Notes under the pieces: generated by a model
The model's database searches: none
What the model saw: only the letters and a program-made list of their open reading frames with translations
Told to the model about the DNA's origin: nothing
Translations under genes and position numbers: made by a program
Source: Ignavibacteriota bacterium
Lineage (GTDB): Bacteria > Bacteroidota > Ignavibacteria > Ignavibacteriales > Melioribacteraceae
NCBI GenBank assembly: GCA_002698995.1
Contig: PAAX01000002.1
Location: 248,001 to 312,000, forward strand
Direction: 5' to 3'
DNA length: 64,000 nt
In this document: positions 6,397-40,100 of the stretch, piece by piece
Layout: the number at the start of each line of letters is the position of its first letter
Position numbering within the stretch: position 1 is the first letter of the stretch

Positions 6397-6923
6397 TGAA
6401 GAAAATAGAACGCATCTTTAGAAATTCGAATAACAGTGATGAGATATTTGATGCATTTACTGAAGCAGTAAAAGAAAAAATTGATGATGTTAATCTCTAC
6501 AAAATTCTCCTAGGAAATCACTCCCTTTCTAAAGATGAAATTATAATGTATGCTGAAAAATTATGTAAAGAATTCCCTCATCATAAATATGAAATTTATA
6601 TGTGGGTCGCTTCAATATTTCAAAATAGTTTATTGGATTTAAACAGACTTGAAATTGCTTTTGAATACTTCGTAAAAGCCAGCAGTACAAATCCAACTGA
6701 AGTTAAACCGATTATTCAAATAATTGACTTATACACCTATGATATGGATTCCCAATTAAATAACAAAATTATGGAAACTGTTAAAAGATCGGAGAAGAAA
6801 ATAAAAAGCAGAAGTGAATATTATTACAAATTAGCAGCGCATTTTAAAAATCTTAATGATAATGAATCATTTAAGAAATGTTTGAAGTTAGCAGAGAGGT
6901 TTAATAGTAATAACCAATTGTAA
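6396..6923 (+). CDS. Helical (TPR-like) hypothetical protein
   Basis: A 175-residue, charged, all-helical protein with no signal peptide or membrane segment. Segments at about 80-100 ([19 protein letters not shown]) and 143-170 ([20 protein letters not shown]) have the small-residue and aromatic spacing of tetratricopeptide repeats, though no full tandem array is clear. It is translationally coupled to the PD-(D/E)XK-like gene (TAATG overlap), so a shared role is likely. Its last 23 bases overlap the 3' end of the convergent patatin gene. A protein-protein adaptor is the simplest reading; no specific function is claimed. Confidence 0.55.
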
Positions 6924-11498: not shown

Positions 11499-11510
11499 AA
11501 TAAAAACCTT

Positions 11511-11720
11511 TTAATCTAGTGGATCATATCCGCCTTTGTTAAACGGATTGCATCTTAAAATTCTCCAAATTGCTTTAGCTCCTCCCTTCAAAACACCATA
11601 TTTTAGAAAAGCTTGAGCAGAATATTCTGAACATGTAGGATAGAAACGGCAAGATGGAGGAAATAATGGTGAAATAAATTTTTGATACCCTCTTATCAGA
11701 AAAATAAAAATGTGTTTCAT
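11511..11720 (-). CDS. yidD: Membrane protein insertion efficiency factor YidD
   Basis: A 69-residue protein with the family signature [23 protein letters not shown] and [14 protein letters not shown], including the three conserved cysteines. YidD is a small membrane-associated factor that helps YidC-dependent insertion and lies between rnpA and yidC in most bacteria, as here. Its ATG overlaps the rnpA stop by one base. Confidence 0.97.
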
Positions 11721-12118
11721 TAAAAATCGGACTCAATTTTCTTAAGTAAGTCAATAACCTCGGGCATAATTTCTTTCAATCTTACAGTTCTATTGTACTT
11801 TTTGTTCAATCTATTAAGCTGAAATACAAGCAGCAAAGTTTTATTTAGAGAAGCTGCCACCTGATTAATTTCATGTTTGTTTAACCGGTAGGATTCTCTG
11901 AGTAGTCTTTTAACTCTGTTTCTCCAAACTGCGTTGCCAGCCTTTTTATAAACACCAAAGGCTACCTTTACATTTGAACTAAACTCTTCATCCAAAATTA
12001 TGTAAGTAGCCTTTAATATACCATTAGCAGAAATTACCGTCTTTCCTGCTTCAAAAATTAACTCGAACTGTTTCTTGCTTTTTATTATTTCAGACTTACT
12101 AAGCCCAAACTTTTTCAA
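11720..12118 (-). CDS. rnpA: Ribonuclease P protein component (TTG start)
   Basis: A 132-residue RnpA, the protein subunit that helps the catalytic RNA mature tRNA 5' ends. The basic helix signature [13 protein letters not shown] (about 76-88) is intact, preceded by the substrate-binding strand [12 protein letters not shown]. The reading frame opens with TTG at 12118, the codon immediately after the rpmH stop, and there is no in-frame ATG before the conserved domain. Translation therefore probably depends on ribosomes finishing rpmH. It lies between rpmH and yidD in the usual order. Confidence 0.95.
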
Positions 12119-12265
12119 TTACCCTTCGTCACTCACAGTTAGTTTTTTTCTTCCTCTTGCTCTTCTTCTAGCTAAAACTTTTCTGCCGTTTTTTGAAGCC
12201 ATACGTGCTCTAAAGCCGTGTTTGTTCTTACGTTTTCTATTGCTTGGTTGAAACGTTCTTTTCAT
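12119..12265 (-). CDS. rpmH: Ribosomal protein bL34
   Basis: A 48-codon gene read directly from the sequence. The product begins [19 protein letters not shown], followed by the [20 protein letters not shown] core of bL34, which packs into 23S rRNA near the exit tunnel. It ends with a short acidic tail, TVSDEG, where many homologues stop soon after the KKLTV segment. The stop codon TAA is followed directly by the rnpA TTG. As in most bacteria it heads the rnpA-yidD-yidC operon, but dnaA is not on its other side. Confidence 0.98.
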
Positions 12266-12447
12266 TTTCTTAACACCTAATTTTTAACAAAGAATCGAAA
12301 TTTAATTAAAAAGCAAATAAGATACAATTTATTTCTAAGTTGTTTTATTTGAATAAGTTAGAAAAATATCAGAAAAATAATTGCTTTAAATTCTTTGTTA
12401 ATCTATTGTTGAACTAAACTAATTCCAAATTAATCTTATGCTTTATT

Positions 12448-14139
12448 CTACTTATACAGATATCTCTTTATTTTTTGTGTCGGAGTTTTTTCAAACTGTT
12501 CCGATTGCTCTAATACTTTATGAATTCTAGAAAATGATGAAATCTTAGAATTTACTGTAGTATGAATATTTTGAAGAAGTTCATTTATTTTCTTTCTTGC
12601 ATCCGATTCATTCATCTTTTGAATTTGGAATGTATTATCTATTTCTTCATAATTTAAATGAACTTTTGCAACTAATTTACTCTCTCTTTCAAGAACTAAA
12701 GATTCCAGCACAAAATCACAGCTGTTTATTACCGATTCTACCTCTTCCGGATAAATATTCTTTCCATTTGCTCCAATAATAACGTTTTTGGATCTTCCTT
12801 TAATAAACAAATATCCATCCGAATCTATTGTTCCTAAATCTCCGCTTCTAAACCATCCGTCATCAGAAAGAACTTCTTTTGTCTTTTCAGGATCTTTGTA
12901 GTAGCCCTTCATAACATTCGGTCCTTTAATCAGAACTTCTCCTTCATCAGTTCCCGTAATACTGTTATCTATTTTAATTTCCATTCCAACCAGACATTTT
13001 CCAGCCGATCTAAATCGAGTATAAGCCGGAACAGTTCCGGTTACTAACGGAGAAGTTTCTGTTAAACCGTAACCAATTGCATAAGGAAAACCTCCTTCTC
13101 GCATAAATAACTCTACATCTTCGGCAATTGCAGCTCCTCCAATACAAAGCATTCTCAATTTGCCACCGAAAGTTTTATAAAGTTTTTTACATGCTATTCT
13201 ATTTAGTTTTTTTCTGAACATTGGAATTTTATATAATCCCCTCGTAATTGCTTTTTTATTTATTTCAGGTAGAATTCTCATCCTATAAATTTTTTCTATA
13301 ACTAATGGAACTGAAAGCATAACTGTAGGCTGAACTTTTTTAAGTGCCGGTAAAAGTGCTGCTGCTGTTGGCGGTTTATCTATATAATATACCGATGCTC
13401 CTCCAAAAAAAGGTGTTAAAAATCCTAATGTTGATTCAATTGTATGAAACAAAGGAAGAATTGAAAGCATTCTGTCATTCTGTTGAAGGTCAACAAAATC
13501 GAGTGTAGCAATTACATCGGAAATAACATTTTTATGCGAAAGCATCACTCCTTTTGAGTGACCGGTAGTTCCCGATGTATATAAAATTAATGCCGTATCA
13601 TCTTCTTTAATATCTTCTGAAATTAATCCCGCAAACTTAAATGCAGCAGTTTTAATTTTGTTTAGTTCTTTCTTTCCTTCTTTGATAAATTCTTTGAGTT
13701 TATCATTGCTTGTATCGGGAGGAATTGCAGAAAAATCATCTAGTAAAATTCTGAATTGTAATCCATCGGAATTAAAATCTTCAATTTTGCTGAAGTATTT
13801 TGCCGATACAAATATGGCTTTGCTTTCGGAATGTCTTAATATATGATGAACTTCAGATTCATGAAATTCGGTCATAATTGGAACTGCGATTGCACCCAAA
13901 GTAGTAATTGCAAAATAAACCACTCCCCAATTTGGTTGATTTTCACTAAGTATTGCAATCTTATCTCCATGAATTACACCTTGATCTTTAAGATAGGCTG
14001 CAACTTCATTTACTTGCTTTTTAAATTCGGCGTATGTATATCCCTTTTGATCAATAAAGGAGATAAACTGATTGTCTGCATATGCTTCGCATGATTTATT
14101 CAGAGCTTCAAGAAGATTTAATTTATTTAATTGTATCAT
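12448..14139 (-). CDS. Long-chain acyl-CoA ligase / AMP-dependent synthetase
   Basis: A 563-residue adenylate-forming enzyme that activates a fatty acid to acyl-AMP and then acyl-CoA. Core motifs are present: the phosphate loop LILYTSGTTGHSKGVMLSH (about 186-204), YGLTETSPLVTG (about 359-370), DGWFRSGDLG (about 430) and the hinge and C-terminal lobe KGRSKNVIIGANGKNIYPEEVE (about 447-468). Architecture and length match bacterial FadD-like ligases, and the predicted C-terminal KTPTQKIKRYLYK contains the catalytic Lys region. A GGAAAGAG Shine-Dalgarno precedes the ATG. No other beta-oxidation or lipid genes are adjacent, so chain length and pathway are open. Confidence 0.92.
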   Translation of the reverse strand: MIQLNKLNLLEALNKSCEAYADNQFISFIDQKGYTYAEFKKQVNEVAAYLKDQGVIHGDKIAILSENQPNWGVVYFAITTLGAIAVPIMTEFHESEVHHILRHSESKAIFVSAKYFSKIEDFNSDGLQFRILLDDFSAIPPDTSNDKLKEFIKEGKKELNKIKTAAFKFAGLISEDIKEDDTALILYTSGTTGHSKGVMLSHKNVISDVIATLDFVDLQQNDRMLSILPLFHTIESTLGFLTPFFGGASVYYIDKPPTAAALLPALKKVQPTVMLSVPLVIEKIYRMRILPEINKKAITRGLYKIPMFRKKLNRIACKKLYKTFGGKLRMLCIGGAAIAEDVELFMREGGFPYAIGYGLTETSPLVTGTVPAYTRFRSAGKCLVGMEIKIDNSITGTDEGEVLIKGPNVMKGYYKDPEKTKEVLSDDGWFRSGDLGTIDSDGYLFIKGRSKNVIIGANGKNIYPEEVESVINSCDFVLESLVLERESKLVAKVHLNYEEIDNTFQIQKMNESDARKKINELLQNIHTTVNSKISSFSRIHKVLEQSEQFEKTPTQKIKRYLYK

Positions 14140-17300: not shown

Positions 17301-17605
17301 CGAACCCCAAATAAAGTAAAATTAACGACCGACAAATTTATAAAATTTAAATGAATTTTTTCTGAATATATAACACAAAAGGTGTTTTTTTAGAAAGAAT
17401 TAATTTAAGAAACCTAAAAAAAATCTCCTTAAACTCGATAATAAATGAAAGTATTTGTGATTTCATAACTAACTTTTTATAAAATTGACTATTGATTTTT
17501 ATTTGCTTAGGTTCAATTTAATATTGGAAAAAAACCGTACAGCACAGAATATTAATCAGAATCAAACCTAGTCAACAGCATTTCATTAATTGTTTGGTAG
17601 TTTTT
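17301..17605. other. 305-base divergent intergenic region, recQ / multi-PAS kinase
   Basis: No ORF, tRNA or strong hairpin is visible. It must hold the promoters for recQ (minus) and the kinase (plus). A possible plus-strand sigma-70 promoter is TTGACT at 17485-17490, a 17-base spacer, then TAGGTT at 17508-17513, about 90 bases before the kinase ATG. This is weak evidence in such A+T-rich DNA. Confidence 0.3.
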
Positions 17606-20600
17606 ATGAAAAGTAAACAAACAGAAAAAAAATCAATTCCTAAAAAGGATTCAATTCGCAATTCTAAAGAAAAACTATCTGAGCAATTTGAAAATCTTAT
17701 AGATGAACTAGCAAAGACCGATAAAAAAGATTCTTCCGCTCAAATAAATACATTCAAGAAAAAATTAATCCGATTAGAAAACAAATTATCCAAAAGTGAA
17801 AACTTAACTGAAGTAAAACCGATTGAAGAGAGTACTGAAGTTCAGGAATCCAAGGTCACGTTTTCCGAAAAGCAGTTTAAGTTAATTTGGGAAAACTCAA
17901 AAGATGGAATCCGACTAATTAATAAGGATGGAATTATTGTTCAGGTTAACAATGCTTATTGTAAAATGATTGATAAATCAAAAGATGAGCTGTTGAATAA
18001 AGAAGCCGGTTCTGTTTTCTTTAAGGATGATGCTAAAAGAGTTGAATTGGTATTGATTGATCGTTTTAGAAACAATCAAATAAAAGATAGATTTGAAAAA
18101 GAAGTAAGGCTTTGGAATAATAAGGAAGTCTGGTTTGAAGTAACCAATTCAATTGTAAAATTTGATGATGAAGAATTTCTGTTAAGTCAATACAGAGATA
18201 TAACTGAGAAGAAATCAAACGAACTTAAGCTGAGAAATTCACTAACAAAACTTTATACCATTCTTGATAATTTTCCGGGAGGTGTTTTAGTAGAAAATGA
18301 AAACAGAGTTATCGAATTTGCAAACGAAACATTCTGTAGAATTTTTAAAATCCCTATAAAACCAAAAGATTTAGTTGGACTTGATTGTAGAAAAGCGGCT
18401 GAAGACTCAAAAACTCTGTTTAAAGATGAAAATAAATTTATCAGCATTGTTGAAGAACTTGCAGAAAACAAAATCGAAAAGAACAATATACAGCTTGAAC
18501 TTAAAACAGGCGGACTGCTGGAACTTGGTTTTATACCTATCAAAGAAAATAATTTGGCTTATGGATTTTTATGGCTTTACAATGATATTACCATAGAAAA
18601 GAAATTGGAATTTGAACTTCAGGAAAGTGAAAATAGATTAAGAGAATTAATAAATCTTATGCCCGATATTGTTTGCTTTAAGGACGGAAATGGTAGATGG
18701 ATTGAAGCAAATGAATATGATCTTAAACTTTTTGATCTCACAAAAGTTGATTATAGAGGTAAAACCGATAAAGATTTAGCTCCCTTTAGTCCATTTTATT
18801 ATGATGCCTTTATGAACTGCGAAACATCAGATAATAAAGCCTGGGAAAAAGGAACAGAATTTAGATGTGAAGAAATTATTCCTAAGCCTGACGGTAGAAA
18901 TATAATTTTCGATATTATAAAGAAACCTAACTTTAATGAAGACGGAAGTAGAAAAGGGCTTCTTGTTGTTGGACGTGATATTACCGAAAGAAAAAAATCA
19001 GAAGAACTGATTATTGAGAACAAACGTAAGCTTGATACTTTAATAGGAAATATACCCGGCATTGTATACAGATGTTTGAATGATGCTGATTGGACAATGA
19101 AGTTTATAAGCAGCGGTACATTAAACCTTACCGGCTACTCACCCGACGATCTGACAGAAAACAAAAATTTGAGTTACAATGATTTGATACATCCTAACGA
19201 TAAAGAATATGTTTCTTCTGAAATACAAAAAAGTATTAAGGAAAGTAAATCATTTCAACTGGAATATAGAATTATTGATAAGCACAAAAATATTAAATGG
19301 GTATTTGAAAAAGGATGCTTGGTTAAAGATTTTGTTACAGGGAAAGAGTTTTTAGAAGGAATTATTATTGATGTAACCGAAAGAATAATTGCAGAAAAAA
19401 ATCTAAGAAAAAGTGAAGATAGACTGAATACATTTTATGAAGCTTCATTTAGTGGCGTAATTATTCATGATAATGGAATTACTGTCGACTGCAATAAAGG
19501 TATTTGTGAAATGCTTGGTTACACAAGAGAAGAATTAATCAATACAAATGGATTAAATTATTTTCACGAATCGGAAAGAGAGAGAATTAAAAAAATTGTA
19601 GCCGAAAAATCCATTCAGCCATACGAATCCATAATGATAAAAAAAGATGGTTCACTTCTTAATGTTAGAGTTCAGGGAAAAGAAATTTTTTACATGAACA
19701 GAGTATTACGATTTACCGAGTTTAGTGATATTACTTACCAGAAAAGAACTGAAAGTCTTCATGAATCAAGATTAAAACTACTCGATCTTTCTTATCATTC
19801 TACAATTGATGAGCTTCTGCAGACAGCTGTTAATGAAGTTGAATCTTTAACACAAAGCAAGATTGGTTTTTATCATTATGTTGATAACGATGAAAAGGAT
19901 TTTACTCTGAAAGCTTGGTCAACAAATACTTTAAAATTTGTATATAACAATGATTCAGAACATCTTAGAAACAATCTTATTATAGCAGGCGATTTAATTG
20001 ACACCCTGAACCAAAGAAAAGCTGTAATTCACAATAACCCAATCATGTATAATCAAAAGAGCTCTTTTTCAGAAATACAAACGGAAGTTGTAAGAGAACT
20101 GGTTGTTCCCGTTATTAGGAACGAAAAGGTTGTCGCAATTTTGGGAGTAGGAAATAAAGATTCCGATTACAATGATATTGATATAGAAATAACTGCAAAC
20201 TTTGCAGACTTAGCCTGGGATATTGCAGAGCGAAAAATCACTATAGAAAATCTAAAAGAAAAGGAAGAACGTTTAAGATTAGCGTTAAAAGCTGCAGATC
20301 AAGGATTGTGGGATTTAAATCTTAAAACAGGTGTTTCGAAAGTATCTGACGAATACCTTACCATGCTTGGGTACAATCCCAATAACTATATTGAAACTTA
20401 TGATAAGTGGATTGACAGAATGCATCCGGATGATAAAGACAGAGTTGTAAAAATTTATAAAGATTATATGGATGGATTAACAGATGAATACAAAATTGAA
20501 TTTAGACAGCGTACGTTTGAAGGAAACTACAAATGGATTTTATCTTTAGGAAAAATTATTCAGTATGACAACGAAAACAAACCACTAAGAATTATTGGAA

Positions 20601-22693
20601 CTCATACCGATATTTCCAAATTCAAAGAAACCGAAGAAAGATTTGTTCAACTTACAGAAATTCAAAATACAATTACACTTTTTGCAACAGAGTTTATTAA
20701 CGTTCCTTTAGATAAGATTGATGAAACTATTATAAATGCCATAGAAAAAGTAGGTAATCTCTTTAAAGTTGACCGGGTTTATTTATTTGATTACTTATTT
20801 GATAAAGGAGTAGTAAGAAATACTTTTGAATGGTGTAATGAAGGTGTATCTAAAGAAATAGAAAATTCGCAGAACGTTCCAATTTCTTCATTATCAGACT
20901 GGATGGATGATCATCAAAACAACAAACCGGTTTTGATCTATGATGTTGATAAAATTGATTATAGTAATGAGCTTAAGGATATATTGATTGCCCAAAATAT
21001 TAAAAGCTTAATCACAGCTCCAATGTTCATTAAAGATAAACTGATTGGTTTTGTTGGATTTGATTCCGTAAAATCCAGTAGAAATTGGAATGAGGATGAA
21101 GTAAATCTTTTAAGAATTTTAGCGGAATTATTTAGTAACCTTGCAGACAGAAGAGAAAGTCAATATGCAATTGCTCAAAGTGAATATAATTTCAGAAAAC
21201 TAATTGATAATTCTCCGGATGGAATTGGTGTAATTAAAGGATTAAAAATTATAATAGCCAATAAAAGCGCTGCCAATATTCTGGGGTATAACTCAAGCAG
21301 CGATTTATTGAATAAAGATCCTTTCATGTTTGTGAATGAAGATTCAAAAATTACTGCTGAAAAATTATTAATAGCATTAAGGAATAACCAAGAACATGAA
21401 GCTGTAATTGTTAAGTTTACTAAACCAAACAATACAACTGTTACATGCGAAGTAAAAGCAGTATCATACAGAATTGACGGAGAAAAACTAATTTTAATAA
21501 CCTTTAGAGATATTACAGAGAAACTCCAAAAGGAAATTGAATTAAGCGAGTATAGAGAACACTTGGAAGATTTAGTTGCAGAGAGAACTAAAGAGATTGA
21601 ACAGCAATCTGAATTTTTCAAGATATTCATAAATACAATTCCCAATCCGGCTTATGTAAAAGATTTGAATGGCTATTACACGGAAGTTAATGAAGCCTTT
21701 CTAAAATATTTTGAAGTTACAAGGGAAGAAATAATCGGAAAAACTATTTCAGAAATTGCACCTGAAGATGTTGTTAAAAAATCTATTGCAAAAGAAAGTA
21801 CTATGCTGAATGAAGTTAAATCAATCTCATACGAAACTTATCATATAACAAAAGACGGTAAAAGAAGAGAACTTTTAACGTATAAAGCTTCATTTGCAGA
21901 AAAGAATAATACGCCGATTGGAATTACCGGTTTGGTAGTTGATATTACCAATCAGAAGAGATTAACTGATCAAATAATTCAAGCATACGAAAAAGAAAAA
22001 GAACTGAATGAAATAAAAACAAATTTCATTTCGATGGCTTCACATGAGTTTAGAACGCCGCTTACTACTATTCTTGCTTCTACCGAATTAATAGGACTTC
22101 ACATTAAAAAAGGGAACTACGAAAAATTAAATACTCATATTAAAAGAGTGCAGGAAGCAGTCGGTTTTATGAATTCTTTATTGGAAGAAGTCTTGATATT
22201 AAGCAGAACAGACAGAGGAATTATTTCTTTTAACCCGACAAACAATAATCTAAGAGCTTTGCTAACCGATCTTATTGAACAATGCAAAGTCTCTGCATCT
22301 AAAGATCATAAAATTGTTTTTAATTATTTTCCTGAAAGAACAAATTATCTGCTGGATGCAAGACTTCTTACATTAATTTTCAACAACCTTCTAACAAATG
22401 CAATTAAGTATTCACCAAACGGCGGTTTAATTCATTTTGATGTTTATTATGAAGACGAAACATTACTTTTCAGGATTATTGATTCGGGAATGGGGATTTC
22501 TCAAAAAGATATTCCGTTAATATTTGAACCGTTCTTCAGAGCCTCAACCGTTGAAAACATTCAAGGCAGCGGTTTAGGATTAAGTATTGTTAAAACCGCA
22601 GTCGATTTACATAAAGGAAATATTTTTGTAAAAAGTACATTAAATTCAGGTACAGAGTTTACCGTTAAAATAAGAACTGACTCAATTACTTAA
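17606..22693 (+). CDS. Multi-PAS/GAF sensor histidine kinase (1695 residues)
   Basis: A soluble-looking kinase with no transmembrane segments. After a Lys-rich coiled coil (1-75) I count eight PAS domains (about 89-199, 212-332, 340-462, 472-597, 600-715, 882-1009, 1190-1312, 1335-1452) and two GAF domains (about 720-879 and 1012-1185). Then come HisKA with phospho-acceptor H1480 in MASHEFRTPLT and a HATPase with FNNLLTNAIKYS, DSGMGIS and GSGLGLSIVK. PAS and GAF domains bind small ligands, haem, flavin or mediate dimer contacts; which ones here are occupied cannot be told. The start is ATG 17606; a TTG four codons earlier gives MVVF and is less likely. The next gene, a receiver-kinase, lies nine bases downstream and is the probable partner. 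Confidence 0.9.
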   Translation: MKSKQTEKKSIPKKDSIRNSKEKLSEQFENLIDELAKTDKKDSSAQINTFKKKLIRLENKLSKSENLTEVKPIEESTEVQESKVTFSEKQFKLIWENSKDGIRLINKDGIIVQVNNAYCKMIDKSKDELLNKEAGSVFFKDDAKRVELVLIDRFRNNQIKDRFEKEVRLWNNKEVWFEVTNSIVKFDDEEFLLSQYRDITEKKSNELKLRNSLTKLYTILDNFPGGVLVENENRVIEFANETFCRIFKIPIKPKDLVGLDCRKAAEDSKTLFKDENKFISIVEELAENKIEKNNIQLELKTGGLLELGFIPIKENNLAYGFLWLYNDITIEKKLEFELQESENRLRELINLMPDIVCFKDGNGRWIEANEYDLKLFDLTKVDYRGKTDKDLAPFSPFYYDAFMNCETSDNKAWEKGTEFRCEEIIPKPDGRNIIFDIIKKPNFNEDGSRKGLLVVGRDITERKKSEELIIENKRKLDTLIGNIPGIVYRCLNDADWTMKFISSGTLNLTGYSPDDLTENKNLSYNDLIHPNDKEYVSSEIQKSIKESKSFQLEYRIIDKHKNIKWVFEKGCLVKDFVTGKEFLEGIIIDVTERIIAEKNLRKSEDRLNTFYEASFSGVIIHDNGITVDCNKGICEMLGYTREELINTNGLNYFHESERERIKKIVAEKSIQPYESIMIKKDGSLLNVRVQGKEIFYMNRVLRFTEFSDITYQKRTESLHESRLKLLDLSYHSTIDELLQTAVNEVESLTQSKIGFYHYVDNDEKDFTLKAWSTNTLKFVYNNDSEHLRNNLIIAGDLIDTLNQRKAVIHNNPIMYNQKSSFSEIQTEVVRELVVPVIRNEKVVAILGVGNKDSDYNDIDIEITANFADLAWDIAERKITIENLKEKEERLRLALKAADQGLWDLNLKTGVSKVSDEYLTMLGYNPNNYIETYDKWIDRMHPDDKDRVVKIYKDYMDGLTDEYKIEFRQRTFEGNYKWILSLGKIIQYDNENKPLRIIGTHTDISKFKETEERFVQLTEIQNTITLFATEFINVPLDKIDETIINAIEKVGNLFKVDRVYLFDYLFDKGVVRNTFEWCNEGVSKEIENSQNVPISSLSDWMDDHQNNKPVLIYDVDKIDYSNELKDILIAQNIKSLITAPMFIKDKLIGFVGFDSVKSSRNWNEDEVNLLRILAELFSNLADRRESQYAIAQSEYNFRKLIDNSPDGIGVIKGLKIIIANKSAANILGYNSSSDLLNKDPFMFVNEDSKITAEKLLIALRNNQEHEAVIVKFTKPNNTTVTCEVKAVSYRIDGEKLILITFRDITEKLQKEIELSEYREHLEDLVAERTKEIEQQSEFFKIFINTIPNPAYVKDLNGYYTEVNEAFLKYFEVTREEIIGKTISEIAPEDVVKKSIAKESTMLNEVKSISYETYHITKDGKRRELLTYKASFAEKNNTPIGITGLVVDITNQKRLTDQIIQAYEKEKELNEIKTNFISMASHEFRTPLTTILASTELIGLHIKKGNYEKLNTHIKRVQEAVGFMNSLLEEVLILSRTDRGIISFNPTNNNLRALLTDLIEQCKVSASKDHKIVFNYFPERTNYLLDARLLTLIFNNLLTNAIKYSPNGGLIHFDVYYEDETLLFRIIDSGMGISQKDIPLIFEPFFRASTVENIQGSGLGLSIVKTAVDLHKGNIFVKSTLNSGTEFTVKIRTDSIT

Positions 22694-22702
22694 GGGGCAA
22701 AA

Positions 22703-23788
22703 ATGGAAGAGCAGCTTAAAATAGTTTTGTTTGAAGATAATCCCGAAGTAAGTTCTAACATACAAGAAATTCTTGAGATGAATGATTTCAAAGTTTTTCT
22801 TCTTGAAGCGGATGTAAATCTTAAAGAAGAAATTTCTTTGATTAATCCCGACCTCATTATTTCCGATATTATGATGCCTAAAAAAAGCGGATTTGAAATT
22901 CTTGAAGAACTTAGAAGCTATAAAGAATTTTTCGACATTCCATTTATTTTTCTGACCGCAAAAACTACTTATGATGATTTAAGAAAAGGGATGAATTTTG
23001 GTGCAGACGATTATATTTATAAACCCTTCAGTTCTGATGATCTTATTCATTCAATAAAATTAAGATTAGAAAAAGCGAACCACATCAAGCAAAAGATTGA
23101 TGAATTCTCAAATAACATTGCAATTCACGTACCGCATGAAATGCGCACTCCGCTTGTATCTCTTCTTGGTTACTCTAGTTTGATTCTTGATGATTATAAA
23201 TCTCTTTCCGATGAAGATGTAATTTCGTTTACCGAAAGAATTAATTTTTCCGCTAAAAGACTTCACAGAACAATTGAAAAGTTTATTCAATATTCAAACT
23301 TAGTTCTGCTTGAACTTGATAAAGATGACAGAAATAAATTCTTATTTGGAAACTCGACAGTAGAAATTTCGGAAGTAATCAAAAGCTGTATTGAAAAAAT
23401 TAATCATCTTTACAAAAGAGAAGATGACTTAAAGATTCGATTGGAAACATTTAGTTCCAAATTAAGTGAACTCTCTCTTTCTACAATTCTTTTTGAGCTT
23501 ATTGATAATGCTTTTAAGTTTTCCAAACAAGGTGATAAGGTTATTATTGAAGGGAAACCTGAAGATAATAAATATAAAATTGAGATTTTCAACAATGGCA
23601 AAGGTATTTCAGATAAAAATCTTAAAAAGCTTGAAGAACTTACTAAACATGGAATACAGAAATACAATAGATTTGAACATGGATTCGGACTTGCAATTGT
23701 GTCTAAGGTAACTAATTATCTTGGAGAACCGATGAAACTTGAAAGTGAAAAAGATTCTTTTACAAAAGTGACTTTAAGAATTCCATAA
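22703..23788 (+). CDS. Receiver-histidine kinase protein (REC-HisKA-HATPase)
   Basis: A 361-residue protein with the receiver domain first. It has the acidic pair E11-D12, phospho-acceptor D55 in IISDIMMP, and conserved K107 in YIYKPFSS. A linker leads to HisKA with H145 in HVPHEMRTPL, then a HATPase with LFELIDNAFKFS, NNGKGIS and FEHGFGLAIVSKV. REC-first kinases usually take phosphate from another kinase and relay or tune their own activity. It lies nine bases after the 1695-residue kinase, so the two form a two-gene phosphorelay whose final output is not encoded here. It converges with the methyltransferase at a four-base gap. Confidence 0.92.
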   Translation: MEEQLKIVLFEDNPEVSSNIQEILEMNDFKVFLLEADVNLKEEISLINPDLIISDIMMPKKSGFEILEELRSYKEFFDIPFIFLTAKTTYDDLRKGMNFGADDYIYKPFSSDDLIHSIKLRLEKANHIKQKIDEFSNNIAIHVPHEMRTPLVSLLGYSSLILDDYKSLSDEDVISFTERINFSAKRLHRTIEKFIQYSNLVLLELDKDDRNKFLFGNSTVEISEVIKSCIEKINHLYKREDDLKIRLETFSSKLSELSLSTILFELIDNAFKFSKQGDKVIIEGKPEDNKYKIEIFNNGKGISDKNLKKLEELTKHGIQKYNRFEHGFGLAIVSKVTNYLGEPMKLESEKDSFTKVTLRIP

Positions 23789-25053: not shown

Positions 25054-25581
25054 ATGAAATCAATAATGCCCAATGAAATTAAGTATGAGAACTTAGTACT
25101 TCGTAAATTATGTAAAGACGATAATCTTAAAATTTATGAAATCCGCTCCAACCAGGATATTGCAAAATATCTGGATCGCCCGATTTGTCAATCATTAGAG
25201 GAAGCCGATAATTTTATCACAAAGGTTAATAATGGAATTTCAAGAGGAGAATATTTTTATTGGGGAATTACTCTGGCAGATGAAAATGAGGTAATTGGAA
25301 CAATTTGTATTTGGAATATTTCCGAAGATAAAACCAAAGGGGATATTGGATTTGAGCTTCTTCCAGCATTTCGCGGTAAAGGAATAATGACTAAATCATT
25401 AAGACTGATAATTGATTATGCTTTTCAAGAACTAAATTTTGATGAACTTTTTGGTGAAGTTGATCCCCAAAATGGTAAATCAATAAACTTGATGAAGAAA
25501 CACGGATTTGAATTATTCGACGAGAACTCTTCGGGTCCTACGGTAATTTATAGATTAACAAAAGAGAATTACCTTATTTAA
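25054..25581 (+). CDS. GNAT-family N-acetyltransferase, RimJ/RimL type
   Basis: A 175-residue acetyltransferase with the acetyl-CoA pyrophosphate loop FRGKGIMTKSL at about residues 110-120, the preceding strand GDIGFELLPA, and the C-terminal motif GEVDPQNGKSINLMKKHGFEL. Layout and length match the RimJ/RimL branch, which acetylates protein N-termini or small amines. The substrate is not predictable. Its last eight bases overlap the 3' end of the convergent regulator gene, so it is likely a single transcription unit. Confidence 0.88.
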   Translation: MKSIMPNEIKYENLVLRKLCKDDNLKIYEIRSNQDIAKYLDRPICQSLEEADNFITKVNNGISRGEYFYWGITLADENEVIGTICIWNISEDKTKGDIGFELLPAFRGKGIMTKSLRLIIDYAFQELNFDELFGEVDPQNGKSINLMKKHGFELFDENSSGPTVIYRLTKENYLI

Positions 25582-26254
25582 CAAACTTATAACCTTCATT
25601 AAATACCGTTATAATATGTTTTGGGCAAGAAGGATTTTTCTCTATTTTTTTTCTTATTGAAAGCATATAATTATCGATAGTTCTTGAAGAAGCATTACTG
25701 TTTACTCCCCACAATGCATCAATAATTTCGGCTCTAGAAATCACTTCCTCTTCCCTTTCAACAAAGAATTTTAGAATTTTATATTCAGTAGAGGTTAATA
25801 AAATTTGTTTGTTTTTTACTTTGGTAATTTGCTTTGTAAAATTAATTCTAATATTAGAGAACGAGGCTTCATCATAACTTTTCAAATAAATTTTCGATCT
25901 TCTAATAATTGCATTTAATCTTGCAATAAACTCATTTTTGTGAACAGGATAATTTATAAAATCATCCGCGCCGCTGTTAAATGCTTCAATTTGATAATCT
26001 TCCTCTTTATTATTAGTTAAAAAAATGATTGGTATAAGAAGATTATGTTTCCTTAAATCTTTGCAGCACTCCATTCCTGTTTCATCATTAAGAAATAGAT
26101 CAACAATAATGGCATCAAAACCATCTCCTTTTGCAAGTTCTGCTCCCACTTTACCGCTTGTTGTAGTAATTGTATAGAAACCTGAACTTTGAAGTATACT
26201 TTTGATTTCATTTTTTATCTGCAAATCATTTTCTATAAAAAGAATTCTTTTCAT
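25574..26254 (-). CDS. OmpR/PhoB-family response regulator with atypical receiver
   Basis: A 226-residue regulator: receiver domain (1-118), then a winged helix-turn-helix (about 128-226) with SRAEIIDALWG and SRTIDNYMLSIRKKIE as recognition region and GYKFVK wing. Phospho-acceptor D52 (IIVDLFLND) and switch T80 are present. Two usual receiver residues are changed: the acidic pair reads E8-N9, and the conserved Lys before Pro is Tyr102 (FINYPV), so phosphorylation chemistry may be weak or altered. No kinase gene is adjacent. Its promoter region carries a near-consensus Pho box and perfect -10, and it diverges from a secreted 5'-nucleotidase, so a phosphate-starvation role is a reasonable hypothesis rather than a demonstrated one. 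Confidence 0.88.
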   Translation of the reverse strand: MKRILFIENDLQIKNEIKSILQSSGFYTITTTSGKVGAELAKGDGFDAIIVDLFLNDETGMECCKDLRKHNLLIPIIFLTNNKEEDYQIEAFNSGADDFINYPVHKNEFIARLNAIIRRSKIYLKSYDEASFSNIRINFTKQITKVKNKQILLTSTEYKILKFFVEREEEVISRAEIIDALWGVNSNASSRTIDNYMLSIRKKIEKNPSCPKHIITVFNEGYKFVK

Positions 26255-26292
26255 TATAGAAACCTAACGTCTTACAGCCAAATTTAATCTTT

Positions 26293-26328
26293 ATTATATC
26301 AAAAGAAAATATGACAATTTTATGACAA
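26293..26328 (-). promoter_or_regulatory. Pho-box-like direct repeat with -10, driving the OmpR-type regulator
   Basis: Read on the minus strand, 26328-26311 is TTGTCATAAAATTGTCAT, two TTGTCAT copies at an 11-base period. It differs from the enteric Pho box only by C-to-T at positions 1 and 12. Twelve bases later comes a perfect TATAAT (26298-26293), and no good -35 is needed if an activator sits on the repeat. This is the PhoB-dependent promoter layout. The regulator ATG lies about 40 bases further on. The same site lies about 50 bases upstream of the divergent 5'-nucleotidase. Confidence 0.55.
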
Positions 26329-26379
26329 CTCTTTCGCTCAATGTCAATAGATTCAATTAAAATAAAACAGGCGGCCAAA

Positions 26380-28266
26380 ATGAAAAAGGTTATTGTTTTA
26401 TTACAGATGTTGTTAATCATTTCTTTAAGTGAAAATACTAAAGCACAAATAGACACTTTAAGAATATTTCACTTAAATGACACACATTCTTGCTTAGCTC
26501 CTCTTGGTCCCCGCAATGAATTTTTACAAGGGACACAGGGGGGTATTGCAAGAGCAGCTTCCGTTATAGGTTATTCTAAAGCTACACAAAAAAATGTGCT
26601 TGCACTTCATGCCGGGGATCTTTCAATCGGTGATCCTTTCTTTAATAATTTCTTAATCATTCCAGAACTTCAAATTTTACAATTGATTGGATTAGATGCT
26701 GTTACTATTGGCAACCACGAATTTGATTTAACTCCTAACGCACTTCTAAGTTCTTTAAGCTGCTTAGAACCGGATTGCAGTTTATCCATATTGAGTTGTA
26801 ATCTTATTATTGAAGCTCCGGAACTTCAGGATTTAAGACAAATAATAAGAGGATGTACCATTAAAGAGTTAGAGGATTTTAAAGTAGGAATTTTCGGATT
26901 AACCCCTCCGGAAACAAATTATTTTTCTTTACCTGCTCCGGTTGTTGTTGATACAAATATAGTTGATCTTACTCTTCAAATAGTAGATTCATTAAAAAGT
27001 GAAGGTTGTGATTTTATTATTTGTCTCTCCCATTTAGGTTTTGCATTAGATCAGATATTAGCAGAAAATATTCCCTATATCAATTTAATTGTCGGTGGAC
27101 ACGATCACTACGAATTACCTGAACCTGTAGAAATTCAAAATCCACTTGGATCAAGCACATATATTGTTCAAGCCGGAGCATTTTACAGATTTGTTGGTGA
27201 AGTAAATTTTATAAAAACCGGTGAAGATATATCATTATTAAATGGCAGACTCATTCCCTTAAATTCCGATATTCCAGAAGATTTTTCTGTTAAAATGAAT
27301 GTAGATGATTTAGTATTAACCGTTGAACAAACATTTCCGGGAATGTATTCTCAACAAATTAGCACTACAGAATCGTTTTTTGAAGAATTTGTTGAATTAC
27401 CATTATCAGTGGGAAATAAAGATACTCCTGTTGGAAATTTAATTACCGATGCATATAGAATTTTCACACATACATGCGGCGCCGTTTCAGTCAGTGGCGC
27501 AACCGCTCAGCCACTTTACAATGGTCCAATTGTGCCGGCAGATGTTTATAGAATGATTAGTTACGGATTTAACGAAGATGATCTTTTAGATTTCAGATTA
27601 GCTACATTTGATATTACCAGCTTCGAATTAGCAAAAGCCTTTAACATAGTTCTATCAATGATTGATCTTAATGATGAATTTCTTCCGCAGGTTTCCGGAC
27701 TAACAATTGAGTACGATATCAGCAAATCACCTGAAAACAGATTAACAAAATTGGAATTGAACGGACTTCCTATTTTACCGGAACAAGTTGTTAAACTAAC
27801 AACAAACGAAGCTTTGCTATTAGCATTGACAGATGTTTTGGGTGTAACTGTTTCTAATGTTTTTATTTATGAAAACGATTGTGAATATTCTGTTGTAATA
27901 AATTATTTAGAAAGTAACGGAACAATAATTCCCAAAATTGAAGGAAGAGTAAAGGCTGTTGACGGCACAGTAAAAGTAGCTGATAATGAATATGTAATTT
28001 ATGATTTCATTCTTAATCAGAATTATCCAAATCCATTTAATCCAAGTACAACAATTACTTATCAAATTGCAGAAGAAGGGAATGTGACGCTCAAAATATT
28101 CGATATACTCGGAAGAGAAATATCAACTCTTGTAAATGATTTTCAAAAACCGGGTGAGTACAAAATTAAATTTGCAAATAACATTAATCTAGCTTCCGGA
28201 GTATATTTCTACCAGCTTAAGATGAAGAATAAAGTTATTTCTAAGAAGATGATGATTCTTGAGTAA
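26380..28266 (+). CDS. Secreted 5'-nucleotidase/UshA-like phosphatase with type IX sorting tail
   Basis: A 628-residue exported enzyme. I start it at ATG 26380, which follows AGGCGG and yields a signal peptide ending KAQ; the longer frame would bury that peptide. The calcineurin-like metallophosphatase domain (about 25-285) shows FHLNDTHS (D34, H36), HAGDLSIGD, IGNHEFD and VGGHDHYE. The 5'-nucleotidase C-terminal domain follows (about 330-510) with VGNLITDAYR and the substrate-site stretch SVSGATAQPL. A C-terminal FNP-type tail (NYPNPFNPSTTI, about 546-628) directs type IX secretion in this phylum. It would release phosphate from extracellular nucleotides or similar esters. The preceding intergenic region contains the Pho-like box. 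Confidence 0.9.
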   Translation: MKKVIVLLQMLLIISLSENTKAQIDTLRIFHLNDTHSCLAPLGPRNEFLQGTQGGIARAASVIGYSKATQKNVLALHAGDLSIGDPFFNNFLIIPELQILQLIGLDAVTIGNHEFDLTPNALLSSLSCLEPDCSLSILSCNLIIEAPELQDLRQIIRGCTIKELEDFKVGIFGLTPPETNYFSLPAPVVVDTNIVDLTLQIVDSLKSEGCDFIICLSHLGFALDQILAENIPYINLIVGGHDHYELPEPVEIQNPLGSSTYIVQAGAFYRFVGEVNFIKTGEDISLLNGRLIPLNSDIPEDFSVKMNVDDLVLTVEQTFPGMYSQQISTTESFFEEFVELPLSVGNKDTPVGNLITDAYRIFTHTCGAVSVSGATAQPLYNGPIVPADVYRMISYGFNEDDLLDFRLATFDITSFELAKAFNIVLSMIDLNDEFLPQVSGLTIEYDISKSPENRLTKLELNGLPILPEQVVKLTTNEALLLALTDVLGVTVSNVFIYENDCEYSVVINYLESNGTIIPKIEGRVKAVDGTVKVADNEYVIYDFILNQNYPNPFNPSTTITYQIAEEGNVTLKIFDILGREISTLVNDFQKPGEYKIKFANNINLASGVYFYQLKMKNKVISKKMMILE

Positions 28267-34183: not shown

Positions 34184-37100
34184 ATGGTGCAGATAATGAA
34201 AAAACCGTCTGTAAGAAAATCGAATCCATCCACAAAAACAAACCCTAATAAAAAAATCAACACCCTTGAAAGTAAAATCAATCAGCTAAAAGATGAACTG
34301 AATTTATTAAATAAAGCTGTTATTGGAACCAATAATGTCGTCTATAAATTTTCAACTCTTTATGGTGGTTTGTTTTATTCTTCTAATACGGGCAAAGTTT
34401 TAGGATACTCAAATAAATTTTTGAAAGAGAATCCGAATTTGTGGAATAATTCAATTCACCCTGAGGATAAAGAAAACGTAAACCATTGTTTGGAAAAACT
34501 AAAACCGAACAGCATAATTGAGATTGAATACAGATTTATCAAAAAAAACAACAAAGTAATTTGGCTAAGAGATAGACTCAAATGCATTAGTAAAACTAAA
34601 AAAGAAATTATTATTGAAGGTCATGTAGTTGATGTAACAAAATTAAAAACAGCAGAAAATGATTCCCAAATAAGTAATTATTACTATGAAACTATTTTTG
34701 ATCAAGCTTCAGATGCAATTTTTATCGGCTCAAATGATGAAAAAAGCAGAGGGACATTAGTTAAGGTAAATAAAGCGGCTTCAAAGTTAACCGGATATGC
34801 GAAGAAAGAATTAGTCGGTAAAAATTATTCTTTCCTATTTCCGAATGATGAATTGAATAATAAACCCTTACGATATGATCTTGTTTTAGCCGGAAAAGAG
34901 GTAACCTCAAAAAGAACTTTAGAGAGAAAAAATAAGACTCAACTTATTGTTCAAATGACTTCAAAACTTTTAAGCGACGGAAGACTGATTAGTTTTGTTA
35001 GAGATGTTTCAGAGGCTGAAACTAATAAAAAGAAAATTGAAGAGAGTGAAGTAAAATATAGATCATTAATTGACGAGGTTATTGAATCTTCTTCTGTTGG
35101 AATTTTTATACTTGATGCAGATTTAAAAGTTGTATGGGTTAATCAATCTGTTGAAGATTTTTTTGGAATCAAAAAATCTGCCGCAATTGGTAAAGATAAG
35201 ATTAAACTGATAAAAGAAAATATCTGCAGAGTTATTGAGAATCCTTCAGAGTTTGCAAAGAAAGTTGTTCATTCATATAAAACAAAAAATTATACTGAAG
35301 ATTTAGAATGCCGCATTCTTCCTAAAGGAAAAAGAAAAGAAAGATGGTTATTACATTGGAGTCAGCCAATAAAAAAAGGTTTATATAAAGGGGGAAGAAT
35401 TGAGCATTATACCGACATAACTTCATCAAAGCTTGCAACTGAAGCAATTAAGAATTCCGAAGCAAAATTTTCAAAAGCCTTTAAGAGCAGTGCTCTTGCA
35501 ATGTCAATTTCCGATATTAAATCAGGAAAGTTGATCGAAGTAAATAATAAATTTTTAGAGCTTACAAGATTTTCAAGAGATGAACTAATTGGAAATACTA
35601 CTATCAATCTTGGAATATTTGATATTAATGAAAGAACCGCTCTTATTAACACATTAAATAAATTGGGCAGACTTGATGGGATTGAAACAGAGTTAAAATC
35701 AAAAGATAGAAAAAATATCTACTGCAAATACTTTGGGGAAATAGTTAATATAAATGGAAAGGAAAAATTACTTTCGATTATTGAAGATGTCACTGATCAA
35801 AAAACTACAGAAGTTGATTTACAAAAAGCAAACGCTGAACTAAATGCAATTTACAAACTATCCCCGGTAATGACGTGCATTATAGATAAACATCGAAATA
35901 TACTTTATGCGAACAATGCATTTACAGATTTTACGGGAACTTCTGAAGAAGAACTAAGAAAAGGAAAAGCATGCGGAGTTATTGGCTGTATAAATGCTCT
36001 TGAAGATCCCAGAGGATGCGGATTTGGTACTGATTGTGCTAATTGTAAGTTGAAAAATGCAATAGAAACAACCTACCAAACCGGAAGTACCATAAAAAAC
36101 ATCAACTATTCGCCGATAATAATTAAAAGCGGTTTTAGAAAAATTGTTCACCTTCTTGGCTCTACTTCTGTAATTAATTTAAATAACAAAAAAAATATAA
36201 TCTTAACTCTTCAGGATGTTTCAGAACAAAAAGAAACTGAAGAAAATTTAACTAAGTATAAAAATATAGTCTCTTCTACAATCGATTCAATTTCTCTTCT
36301 TAGCAGTAATTACGAGTACCTCATTGTTAATGAAGCTTATGAAAAAGTCTCCGGTAAACGCAAAGAAGAGATAATCGGTAAGACAGTAGCAGAATACCTT
36401 GGCAGAGAAACATTTATTAAACAAGTTAAACCCAAGTTTGATAAATGCTTAAAGGGAGAAATAATTAATTATCAAGACTGGTTTAACTATCCAGTTGCCG
36501 GTAAAAGATTTATTGATGTTACTTATTATCCTTACAAAGATTCATCTCAAAAAATTGTAGGTATAATTGCTAATTCAAGAGATATTACAGAAAGAGAATT
36601 ATCTAAAATAGCACTTGAAGAAAACGAAAGCAGACTAAGACAAATTGCGGACAATGTTCCCGGAATAGTTTATCAGTTCAAAATAGATAAAGATGGAAAC
36701 ACTTCATTTCCATTTATGAGTAAAAGTGCAAAAAAATATTACGGGTATTCTTCCGAAGAAATAATGAATGATGCTTCTTTATTGATTAATGCAGTTCATC
36801 CCGATGACCGTGAGCTATTTTTAAATGCATTAGCATATTCACAAAACAATTTAACAACTTACCATATAGATATTAGATTGATTTCAAAAAGCGGTAAGGT
36901 AAGCTGGATTAATGCGAAATCTACTCCCGTAAAATTAGAAGACGGTTCAATACTTTGGACTGGAATTGGAATTGATACCACAAAACAAAAAATAACTGAA
37001 GAAAAATTAAAAGAAAATGAAGAGCGTTTAAGATTGGCTTTAACAGCAGCAGAACAAGGTTTATATGACTTGAACATAAAAACCGGCGAGGCAAAAGTAA

Positions 37101-40100
37101 ACAATGAATATGCAACCATGCTGGGATACACCCCTAAGACATTTAAGGAAACAAACCAAAAGTGGATTGAAAGAATTCATCCTGATGATAGAGAAAATAC
37201 CAAACAAGCTTATTTAGACTATATATCAGGTAAAACAAAAATTTATAAAATTGAATTTAGACAGAAAACTAAGAATGGTGATTGGAAATGGATTCTTTCT
37301 TTAGGAGAAGTTGTTGAATATGATAAAGACGGTTCTCCTTTAAGAATGCTGGGCACTCACACTGATATAACAAATATTAAGAATGTAGAAAATGCTCTTA
37401 AGCAAAGCGAGCAAAGATTTAATCTGGCAATAAACGCTACCGATGATGGAATTTTTGACTGGGACCTAACTGATAATTCAATTTATTATTCCCCCAACTG
37501 GAAAAGAATGCTCGGTTATGAAGATCACGAGATAAAAAATGAATTTTCTGAATGGGAACGTTTAACTGACCCCCAAGATGTTGAAAAAGCTTGGGTAATA
37601 ATGAATGAACATCTTGAAAAGAAAAGAGAGAGATATGAAGTAGAAATAAAAATGAAACACAAGAATGGTGAATGGATTGATGTTCTTGCTAGAGGAGAGG
37701 CAACAAGAGATCAAAATGATAAACCTATTCGTGTAGTTGGAACTCATCTTAATATTACACAAAGAAAAGTAAATGAAAGAAAGTTAGCTGAAAGCGAGAA
37801 GCGTTTTAGAAATATGGCGGATACTGCGCCGGTGCTCATCTGGATGTCAAATGAAGAAATGCTTTGCACTTATTTCAATAAATCATGGATCGATTTTACC
37901 GGGGTCTCTTTCGAAAAACAGCTTGGCAACGGATGGGTTGAATTAGTTCATCCTGATGATAGAGATTTCTGTGTAAATACATTTAAGCAAAGCTGTAGTA
38001 AAAAGATTCCATTCAAAATGGAGTATCGGTTAAGGTATAATGACGGAAGCTATCGATGGATATTTGATCAAGGTGTTCCAAGATTTTCTGACGACGGAAA
38101 ATATCAAGGTTATATTGGTTCTTGTATTGATATAAACGAAACTGTTGAGTCACAGGATTTATTAAAGCTTCAAGGTGAAATTCTACATAACATGGCTGAA
38201 GGTTCTAGTCTGATTAGTGTTGATACTGGAAAGTTTATTTATACAAATCCAAGTTTTGATAAAATGTTCGGTTACAACAAAGGGGAATTAATAGGCAAGC
38301 ACGTAAGCATTATTAATGCCGCAACTAAAGATGACCCCAAGAATATAGCTTCAAAAATTATAAATACACTTCAAAAGAATAATTTTTGGGAAGGGGAGGT
38401 TGAAAATATTAGAAAAGATGGATCTATATTTTGGACTGCTGCAAAAATCAGTACATTCAATCATCATACTTATGGAAACGTTTGGGTAACTGCTCAAGCT
38501 GATATTTCAGCTAAAAAAGAACTTGAAGAAAGAATCAATAAAGAAAAACAAAGCTTAGCAACACTTCATGACTTATACTCAAAAACACACGAAATGACAG
38601 ATAACGAACTTTACCAGTTTGTTATTGACAGAGCGGCAGAACTGACCGAAAGTGAAATAGGCTTTTTCCATAGAATTGGTGAAGATCAATCAACTATAAT
38701 GCTTACTGCTTGGAGTCAAAAAACATATGAGTATTGCAATGCGGTTTATGATGATCATTATCCGATAGATAAAGCGGGCAATTGGATTGAAGCCGTAAGA
38801 CAACGAAAACCAATCGTCTATAATAATTTTGCTCTTTCACCAAATCAAAAGGGAATGCCTGAAGGACATGCAAAAGTAAAAAGAATGATGAGCGTTCCTG
38901 TTATTCATGATAATAAAGTGAAATATATTTTTGGAGTAGGGAATAAATCAAGCGATTACACAGACAATGATATTCTTCAAATTCAGCTTGTATCAGATGA
39001 ACTTCAAAAAATATTAACCAACAGAAAAGCAGAGAATGAATTAATTACAAGCAACCAGCGCTTAAAGGAAGCAGAAGAAATTGGAAATATCGGCTATTTC
39101 TTAATAAATACTGACGATAGCAATGTTATTTGGTCCGACGAAACTTACAACATTCTAGGAAGAAAAAAAGATTTGGGACTTCTTTCAATTGAAGAACTCT
39201 ACCATTACGTTGTTGAGGAAGATGCACAGCTGTTACAATCAGAACTTGAGAAAGCAGTTCATGAAGATTATTCATTCAATTTCCAATACAAGGTAAATGT
39301 TGATTCACAAATAAAATACATTCAGTGTGTAGGTAAAAGCTATTATTCTGCAGAAGGAAAAATTGCTGGTGTTTCGGGAGTCTTAAAAGATGTAACAGAT
39401 TATCAAACAGCTTTAGAAAAATTAAAAGAAAATGAAGAAAAGTTTGAAAAAGCGTTTAAAACTAGTCCAGATGCGCTAGCAATAACAAGGGTTACAGATG
39501 GTATGTACATCGATGTGAATGACAGTTTTAAAAGAATTTTAGGATACGAACGCGAAGAAATGGTTGGAAAAAGCTCCATAGAATTGAACGTTTGGAAGTA
39601 CGAAAAGGACAGAGATCGTTTAGTAAAAGGATTAAGAGAAAAAGGTTTTGTCGAAAATTTAGATGCCGAATATCTAACAAAATCGGGTGATGTAATTTAT
39701 GGATTAATGTCTGCCAGACTTATTAAGCTTAGAAACGAAGATGTAATTCTATCTATAACAAGAGATATAACAGATAGAATTAATATGGAAAAAGATCTTT
39801 TAAGAAGTGAACAAAGATATAAAACTATCTTAAAAGCTCAGCCAGATATTTTCTTTAGAATAAATAAAGATTTAGTATATACAGATTTTTATACAAATGA
39901 TCCATCGGTTTTATTTGTTCATCCGGATAAAATTATTGGGACTAAAGTTAAAGACATTATGCCGGATTATTTATTTAAAATTACTGAGGAAAATATCAAT
40001 GCTACTTTTAATTCAGGAAAAATTAGTACTTACGATTATATGCTTGAAATAAATGGTGAACAAAGATGGTTTGATGCAAGAATGGTACCCAGCAGTGATG

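Follow-up and report, generated by a model that had tools for sequence, protein, structure and literature searches.

The region between an OmpR-type response regulator gene and a secreted 5'-nucleotidase-like gene in this Ignavibacteriota bacterium carries a tandem repeat that can be read on either strand, which raises the question of which of the two genes it serves and which protein reads it. The initial annotation took the minus-strand reading, a PhoB-type Pho box followed by a -10 element that drives the regulator gene in a phosphate-starvation circuit. We examined the repeat in the window (the whole 64-kb stretch of DNA analysed here), in the 4.23-Mb genome to which it belongs and in relatives. 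The features to which we refer are the following.

25574-26254, minus strand: orphan OmpR/PhoB-family response regulator with a pseudo-receiver and the clade-type recognition helix SSRTIDNYMLSIRKKIE
26279-26286, minus strand: candidate -7 element of the regulator gene, TAAATTTG, matching the Bacteroidota TAnnTTTG; TATAAT at 26298-26293 is the alternative
26311-26328, minus strand: 'Pho box' reading TTGTCATAAAATTGTCAT of the site; minus-strand profile maximum -5.9 bits
26312-26316, plus strand: operator unit 1, TGACA, read directly; conserved as an 11-bp-spaced pair before orthologues of the nucleotidase gene
26323-26327, plus strand: operator unit 2, TGACA, exactly one 11-bp period downstream of unit 1; covered by the profile score of 26311-26355 (plus strand)
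26348-26353, plus strand: TAGATT, putative -10/-7 element for the nucleotidase gene; 20 nt separate it from unit 2; placed by the aligned promoters
26380-28266, plus strand: secreted 5'-nucleotidase-like metallophosphatase with a T9SS sorting tail (Pfam); the ORF opens at 26341
G000:C36:8144-8851, in the same genome: canonical regulator copy beside the kinase gene

The site and the gene downstream

The letters proved to be as first described, exact to the base. Positions 26328-26311 of the minus strand read TTGTCATAAAATTGTCAT, with two TTGTCAT copies at an 11-bp period; 16 of the 18 positions agree with the enteric CTGTCATAwAwCTGTCAt, the differences being two changes of C to T, and TATAAT lies 12 nt beyond (26298-26293). 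On the plus strand the site reads TGACAATTTTATGACAA, that is, two TGACA units with an 11-bp period, exactly 20 nt and then TAGATT. The exact pattern YTGTCATN4YTGTCAT has a single match in the window (0.00 expected, none in 100 dinucleotide shuffles) and a single match in the whole genome, and TGACAWN5TGACAW on the plus strand is likewise unique in the window (0.02 expected). With one mismatch allowed, the enteric pattern had two matches in the 4.23-Mb genome and its reversed control had eight. The minus-strand motif thus does not recur there as an enteric-type regulon, and we rejected such a regulon; the second match lies in the coding sequence of a flippase-like protein. Searching 64 kb by eye will turn up some repeats, and one-mismatch enteric matches are no commoner in the genome than in the control, but a chance resemblance without function is contradicted both by the expected number of exact matches per window and by an independently conserved architecture that agrees with the site at operator and -10 alike (see below), and we regard it as extremely improbable.

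The nucleotidase-like protein contains the Pfam domains Metallophos, 5_nucleotid_C and Por_Secre_tail. Its start is probably at 26380 rather than at the ORF start 26341, because the signal-peptide-like MKKVIVLLQMLLIISLSENTKAQ begins there; this start puts 51-52 nt between the box and the ATG. The metal-site motifs NDTH, GD, GNHE and GHDH are invariant or nearly so in 54 sequences (the window protein and 53 homologues), as expected of a two-domain metallophosphatase of the UshA/5'-nucleotidase family. The C-terminal substrate-arginine motif of that family is GGIR. In these 54 sequences its arginine is replaced, the segment reading G-S/A-T/I-A-Q-P, which, together with the T9SS sorting tail, sets them apart from the family; with the metal site kept and GGIR replaced, the substrate of this subfamily may be other than a nucleotide.

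Promoter layout upstream of nucleotidase orthologues

We compared 46 regions upstream of nucleotidase genes, each with a gap of at least 60 bp. TGACA-N6-TGACA was present on the coding strand in 19 of them and on the other strand in two, whereas TGACA pairs with any other spacer occurred in none or one, except for a period of 22 (seven regions). When TTACA was permitted in one unit, the pair was found in 28/46 regions, compared with 19 of 266 control upstreams, many of which belong to genes of the same clusters. The strict box was absent from 17 of the 46, several of which contain degenerate repeats, and at some loci the box sits before an upstream gene of the operon rather than before the nucleotidase gene. 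At one locus (L170 of genome G035, 10991-12873) the nucleotidase homologue is split into two ORFs by an in-frame stop or a frameshift, downstream of an intact-looking operator.

The operator has two TGACA units in the window and up to four elsewhere, almost exclusively with the 11-bp period. When 29 promoters were aligned on the last TGACA, all 29 had A at +22, 90% had T at +26 and 76% had T at +25; TAnnTT occurred at offset 20 in 13 of the 29 and at any other offset at most once. Since the rows of the profile described below were selected by a TNACA repeat, the -10 part alone is independent of this selection, and the TAGATT of the window lies at exactly the same offset. The layout shared across the class before orthologues of the divergently oriented 5'-nucleotidase-like gene is thus [TGACA-N6]2-4, 20 nt and (T/C)AnnTT, i.e. 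tandem repeats at one helical turn and at a fixed distance from the -10, as in OmpR/PhoB-type activated promoters. Transcription of the nucleotidase gene is predicted to start at approximately 26358-26362. The element aligned de novo, TAnnTT(T)(G), resembles the Bacteroidota -7 consensus TAnnTTTG (PMC7366714), of which the window's TAGATTCA is an imperfect copy. It differs from the Bacteroidota promoter in that its first base is T or C, its downstream TG is weak and the operator takes the place of the -33 TTTG. Together with the T9SS tails, the -7-like element points to the phylum Bacteroidota.

A 45-column profile, built from 28 promoters of genomes other than the window's own, placed the window site at the top of the 64 kb (24.3 bits at 26311, plus strand; the runner-up scored 13.2), while the maxima in 60 simulated windows averaged 11.4 bits and reached 16.6 at most. 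Within the intergenic region, the minus strand scored no higher than -5.9 bits. The composite motif TGACAWN5TGACAW-N19-TANNTT had 116 matches in 67 of 391 genomes versus two for its reversed control; the 116 are a count of listed places and include some of the promoters from which the pattern came, but in 28 of these 67 genomes no nucleotidase homologue passed the cut-off, which makes them independent of that set. Its one match in the window's genome is the window site itself. The looser TGACAWN5TGACAW gave 69 matches against 22 control matches in 18 genomes. A variant site scoring 20.8 bits precedes a UbiA gene beside the kinase/regulator cluster at G000:C36, in the same genome as the window. 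Two further observations concern the motif as such: three TGACA units with an 11-bp period lie on the minus strand of L273 (6797-6842, G000:C27) with no obvious downstream target gene, and genome G236 has eight composite promoter sites, two of which (C188:5616-5657 and 6409-6450, 0.8 kb apart) are identical over 42 bp.

The original reading of a PhoB-activated layout thus stands as far as the tandem 11-bp operator of OmpR/PhoB type is concerned and is not supported as far as a Pho box is concerned, the pst boxes of this lineage being TTAACA (see below). Nor do the data support conservation of the box as a promoter driving the regulator gene: in relatives the conserved reading lies on the coding strand of the nucleotidase gene and has its own -10 at fixed spacing. 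The repeat does recur in relatives upstream of nucleotidases, on the strand opposite to the one proposed, and is absent from the 19 pst upstreams.

A kinase-paired regulator family and its divergent member

The closest homologues of the window regulator (36-42% identity) are mostly canonical regulators whose genes follow that of a histidine kinase of ~810 amino acids. Genes for this kinase and the OmpR-type regulator are often found near the nucleotidase gene: of 40 loci selected solely for their nucleotidase gene, 14 had the regulator gene within 0.2-7 kb, whereas by chance one genome-wide best copy would be expected to fall so near about once per hundreds of loci. The proposed link between regulator and nucleotidase is conserved class-wide. 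The motif also tracks the N-terminal region of the kinase (odds ratio 19; p=4e-23 by Fisher's test on 391 genomes treated as unrelated, p-values that are too small because the genomes are related). At a kinase cut-off of E<=1e-40, set after the table had been inspected, the motif was present in 35 of the 57 genomes with both genes, in 16/40 with the kinase only, in 4/21 with the nucleotidase only and in 12 of 273 with neither. No conserved box was seen upstream of the kinase or regulator genes in the fetched loci of relatives.

In the window's genome, the cluster at G000:C36 encodes the kinase, a receiver-cyclase and the canonical regulator, followed directly by the UbiA gene. The window regulator has 46 response-regulator matches in this genome and, as response regulators number dozens, a different OmpR-type protein could be the binder.

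The 25574-26254 protein consists of a receiver and a Trans_reg_C domain. Its receiver has E8, N9 in place of D9, D52, T80 and Y102 in place of K102. Response regulators that lack at least one of the DD, D, T and K residues are defined as atypical (PMC12632262), and this protein, which has lost the second acidic residue and the Lys while keeping D52 and T80, is a pseudo-receiver by that definition; the first description of an orphan with an atypical receiver was correct. In the tree it falls inside the kinase-paired clade on a long branch, beside the copy of genome G002 (weak support, 0.44). Compared with the clade, the protein is 36% identical over the receiver, 44% over the DNA-binding domain and 63% around the recognition helix; the corresponding values within the clade are 59%, 56% and 82%. 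By these comparisons the window regulator is a fast-evolving member of the kinase-paired family that has no kinase of its own. The better-kept recognition helix and the lost receiver residues suggest that it may read the clade operator with no usual response to a kinase. No close orthologues were found in the contig database, where the nearest proteins are ~30% paralogues from other phyla, nor was a divergent regulator/nucleotidase pair sharing the box found in relatives, whose ~40% homologues are canonical and mostly encoded after kinase genes. Multi-PAS kinases of 1699 and 2486 amino acids and a receiver-kinase protein are encoded near the orphan regulator (17594-22693, 22703-23788 and 34184-41644 of the window) and are possible signalling partners.

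We therefore consider it likely that the site comprises an activator operator and the core promoter of the nucleotidase-like gene, bound by the kinase-paired regulator family. The operator, the -10, their spacing, orientation and conservation, the co-occurrence with the kinase and the pseudo-receiver residues are established by sequence; from these we infer the identity of the binder, activation rather than repression, a role for the pseudo-receiver and a signal. The two TGACA units, one helical turn apart, would be occupied by OmpR/PhoB-family regulator subunits in tandem, and the bound face of the DNA would contact RNA polymerase at TAGATT, 20 nt downstream. The binder would come from the family that is paired with the conserved ~810-aa kinase and whose genes often lie close to the nucleotidase gene; the genome offers two candidates, the canonical copy at G000:C36:8144-8851 and the divergent pseudo-receiver copy. 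The latter would probably work without phosphorylation, as a co-activator or competitor, and, with the 5' end of its gene facing the same operator, may sense its own level. A variant of this explanation, which we hold to be somewhat unlikely, is that the pseudo-receiver represses or acts as a decoy, preventing the canonical regulator from acting at the operator that they share and keeping the nucleotidase gene off until displaced; its degenerate receiver, partly conserved recognition helix (63% versus 36% receiver identity to the clade) and divergent placement at the operator fit such a role, but the atypical OmpR-family regulators ChxR and HP1043 act without phosphorylation, which makes activation equally possible (PMC3960148, PMC8345958).

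Phosphate and the proposed wider regulon

In this lineage, TTAACA or TTAAYA at an 11-bp period occurs in 5-8 of 19 pstS upstream regions, and tandem TTAACA boxes with that period precede the pst operons of L091, L094, L095, L097 and L104. A TGACA pair was never seen in the 19 pst upstreams, nor a TAACA pair in the nucleotidase upstreams; the pstS upstream of the window's genome has no TGACA and only a weak TAACA/TTAATA pair. Tandem TTAACA is apparently the Pho box of the lineage. It shares the 11-bp period and the coding-strand orientation with the nucleotidase box, which differs in having G where the pst box has A. The window regulator scored 145.8 bits on the PhoB model, below its cut-off of 296.2; the regulator at G000:C31 scores highest in this genome, although its 231 bits fall short of the cut-off as well, and adjoins a PhoR/PnpS-like kinase, making this pair the candidate PhoB/PhoR.

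These data bear on two further explanations. That the lineage's true PhoB (G000:C31) binds the site, the nucleotidase being an ordinary Pho member with a variant box, would agree with the 11-bp tandem layout common to TTAACA and TGACA boxes and with the classical membership of phosphatases in the Pho regulon (PMC4415409), yet we judge it improbable, as neither box pair crosses over between pst and nucleotidase upstreams and the motif tracks a separate kinase. Still less probable is the phosphate-starvation circuit in which a minus-strand PhoB-type Pho box and TATAAT drive the regulator gene. It accounts for the 16/18 agreement, the TATAAT and the adjoining phosphatase-type enzyme, and the co-regulated serine-palmitoyltransferase-like enzyme and lipid kinase found elsewhere fit phosphorus sparing, as in Caulobacter, which makes glycosphingolipid on phosphate starvation (PMC6445935). 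Against it are the conserved orientation on the opposite strand with a minus-strand profile of -5.9, the lack of a conserved box before the regulator genes of relatives, pst upstreams that carry TTAACA at period 11 (5-8/19) and never a TGACA pair, and the PhoB/PhoR-like pair at G000:C31, with the window regulator at 145.8 against a cut-off of 296. With a distinct pst box and a separate PhoB/PhoR-like pair, a phosphate circuit at the window is a possibility at most. A phosphorus link of the regulon as a whole is possible, its targets including a phosphatase-type enzyme and lipid genes, with the Caulobacter parallel.

Scanning of fetched loci revealed sites also before genes for a UbiA-type prenyltransferase, a serine-palmitoyltransferase-like enzyme, short-chain dehydrogenases, a fusion of Omp85 with an endonuclease/exonuclease/phosphatase domain, DUF3108 and small secreted proteins or lipoproteins; as sites outside the nucleotidase loci were fetched for their motif match, this list is a lead and not a census. 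Genes for a kinase, a receiver-nucleotidyl-cyclase and an OmpR regulator occur as a set in L180 (G000:C36, 4794-13192), L162 and L163, alongside genes for UbiA-type, lipid-kinase, ThiL-like and serine-palmitoyltransferase-like proteins. The secreted protein that joins an endonuclease/exonuclease/phosphatase domain to an Omp85-type barrel (L163, 11311-13446, and homologues) is encoded beside kinase/regulator genes and has its own operator in L166.

In the E. coli Pho box, an OmpR/PhoB-family regulator binds two direct repeats of 11 bp head-to-tail, and the distance to the core promoter is strict (PMC4415409, PMC10294691). The promoters described here likewise have direct-repeat units of 11 bp, two in the window, and strict spacing but, unlike the E. 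coli box (CTGTCAT), present TGACA on the regulated strand and a -10 of (T/C)AnnTT at 20 nt; unlike those of the enteric Pho regulon, the targets are envelope or surface genes and the box is absent from pst upstreams. Like ChxR, HP1043 and GlnR, the window regulator combines an OmpR-type DNA-binding domain with a receiver that lacks phosphotransfer residues (as defined in PMC12632262); unlike them, it is a diverged member of a canonical kinase-paired family and stands back-to-back with a target of that family. The layout is of the known OmpR/PhoB kind, whereas the regulon, its code and its targets are apparently undescribed: we found no relevant literature on any of the three in a searched literature poor in subscription journals.

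In its widest form, which we put forward tentatively, the finding would be an undescribed class-wide two-component regulon, in which the ~810-aa kinase, the OmpR-type regulator, sometimes a receiver-cyclase and the operator [TGACA-N6]n-20 nt-(T/C)AnnTT control a surface phosphohydrolase, sphingolipid-like lipid genes and outer-membrane proteins, and in which, at the window, a degenerate-receiver paralogue back-to-back with its target sets the expression of that target without phosphorylation. For a two-component system of a mostly uncultivated bacterial class, it supplies an operator code that can be tested, a promoter geometry and a list of targets. The presence of two OmpR-type codes in a single lineage, with TTAACA before pst and TGACA in the nucleotidase regulon, offers a case for how paralogous regulators divide DNA specificity, and the pseudo-receiver at a shared divergent operator is a defined case for the mode of action of such proteins, a question that PMC12632262 leaves unsettled.
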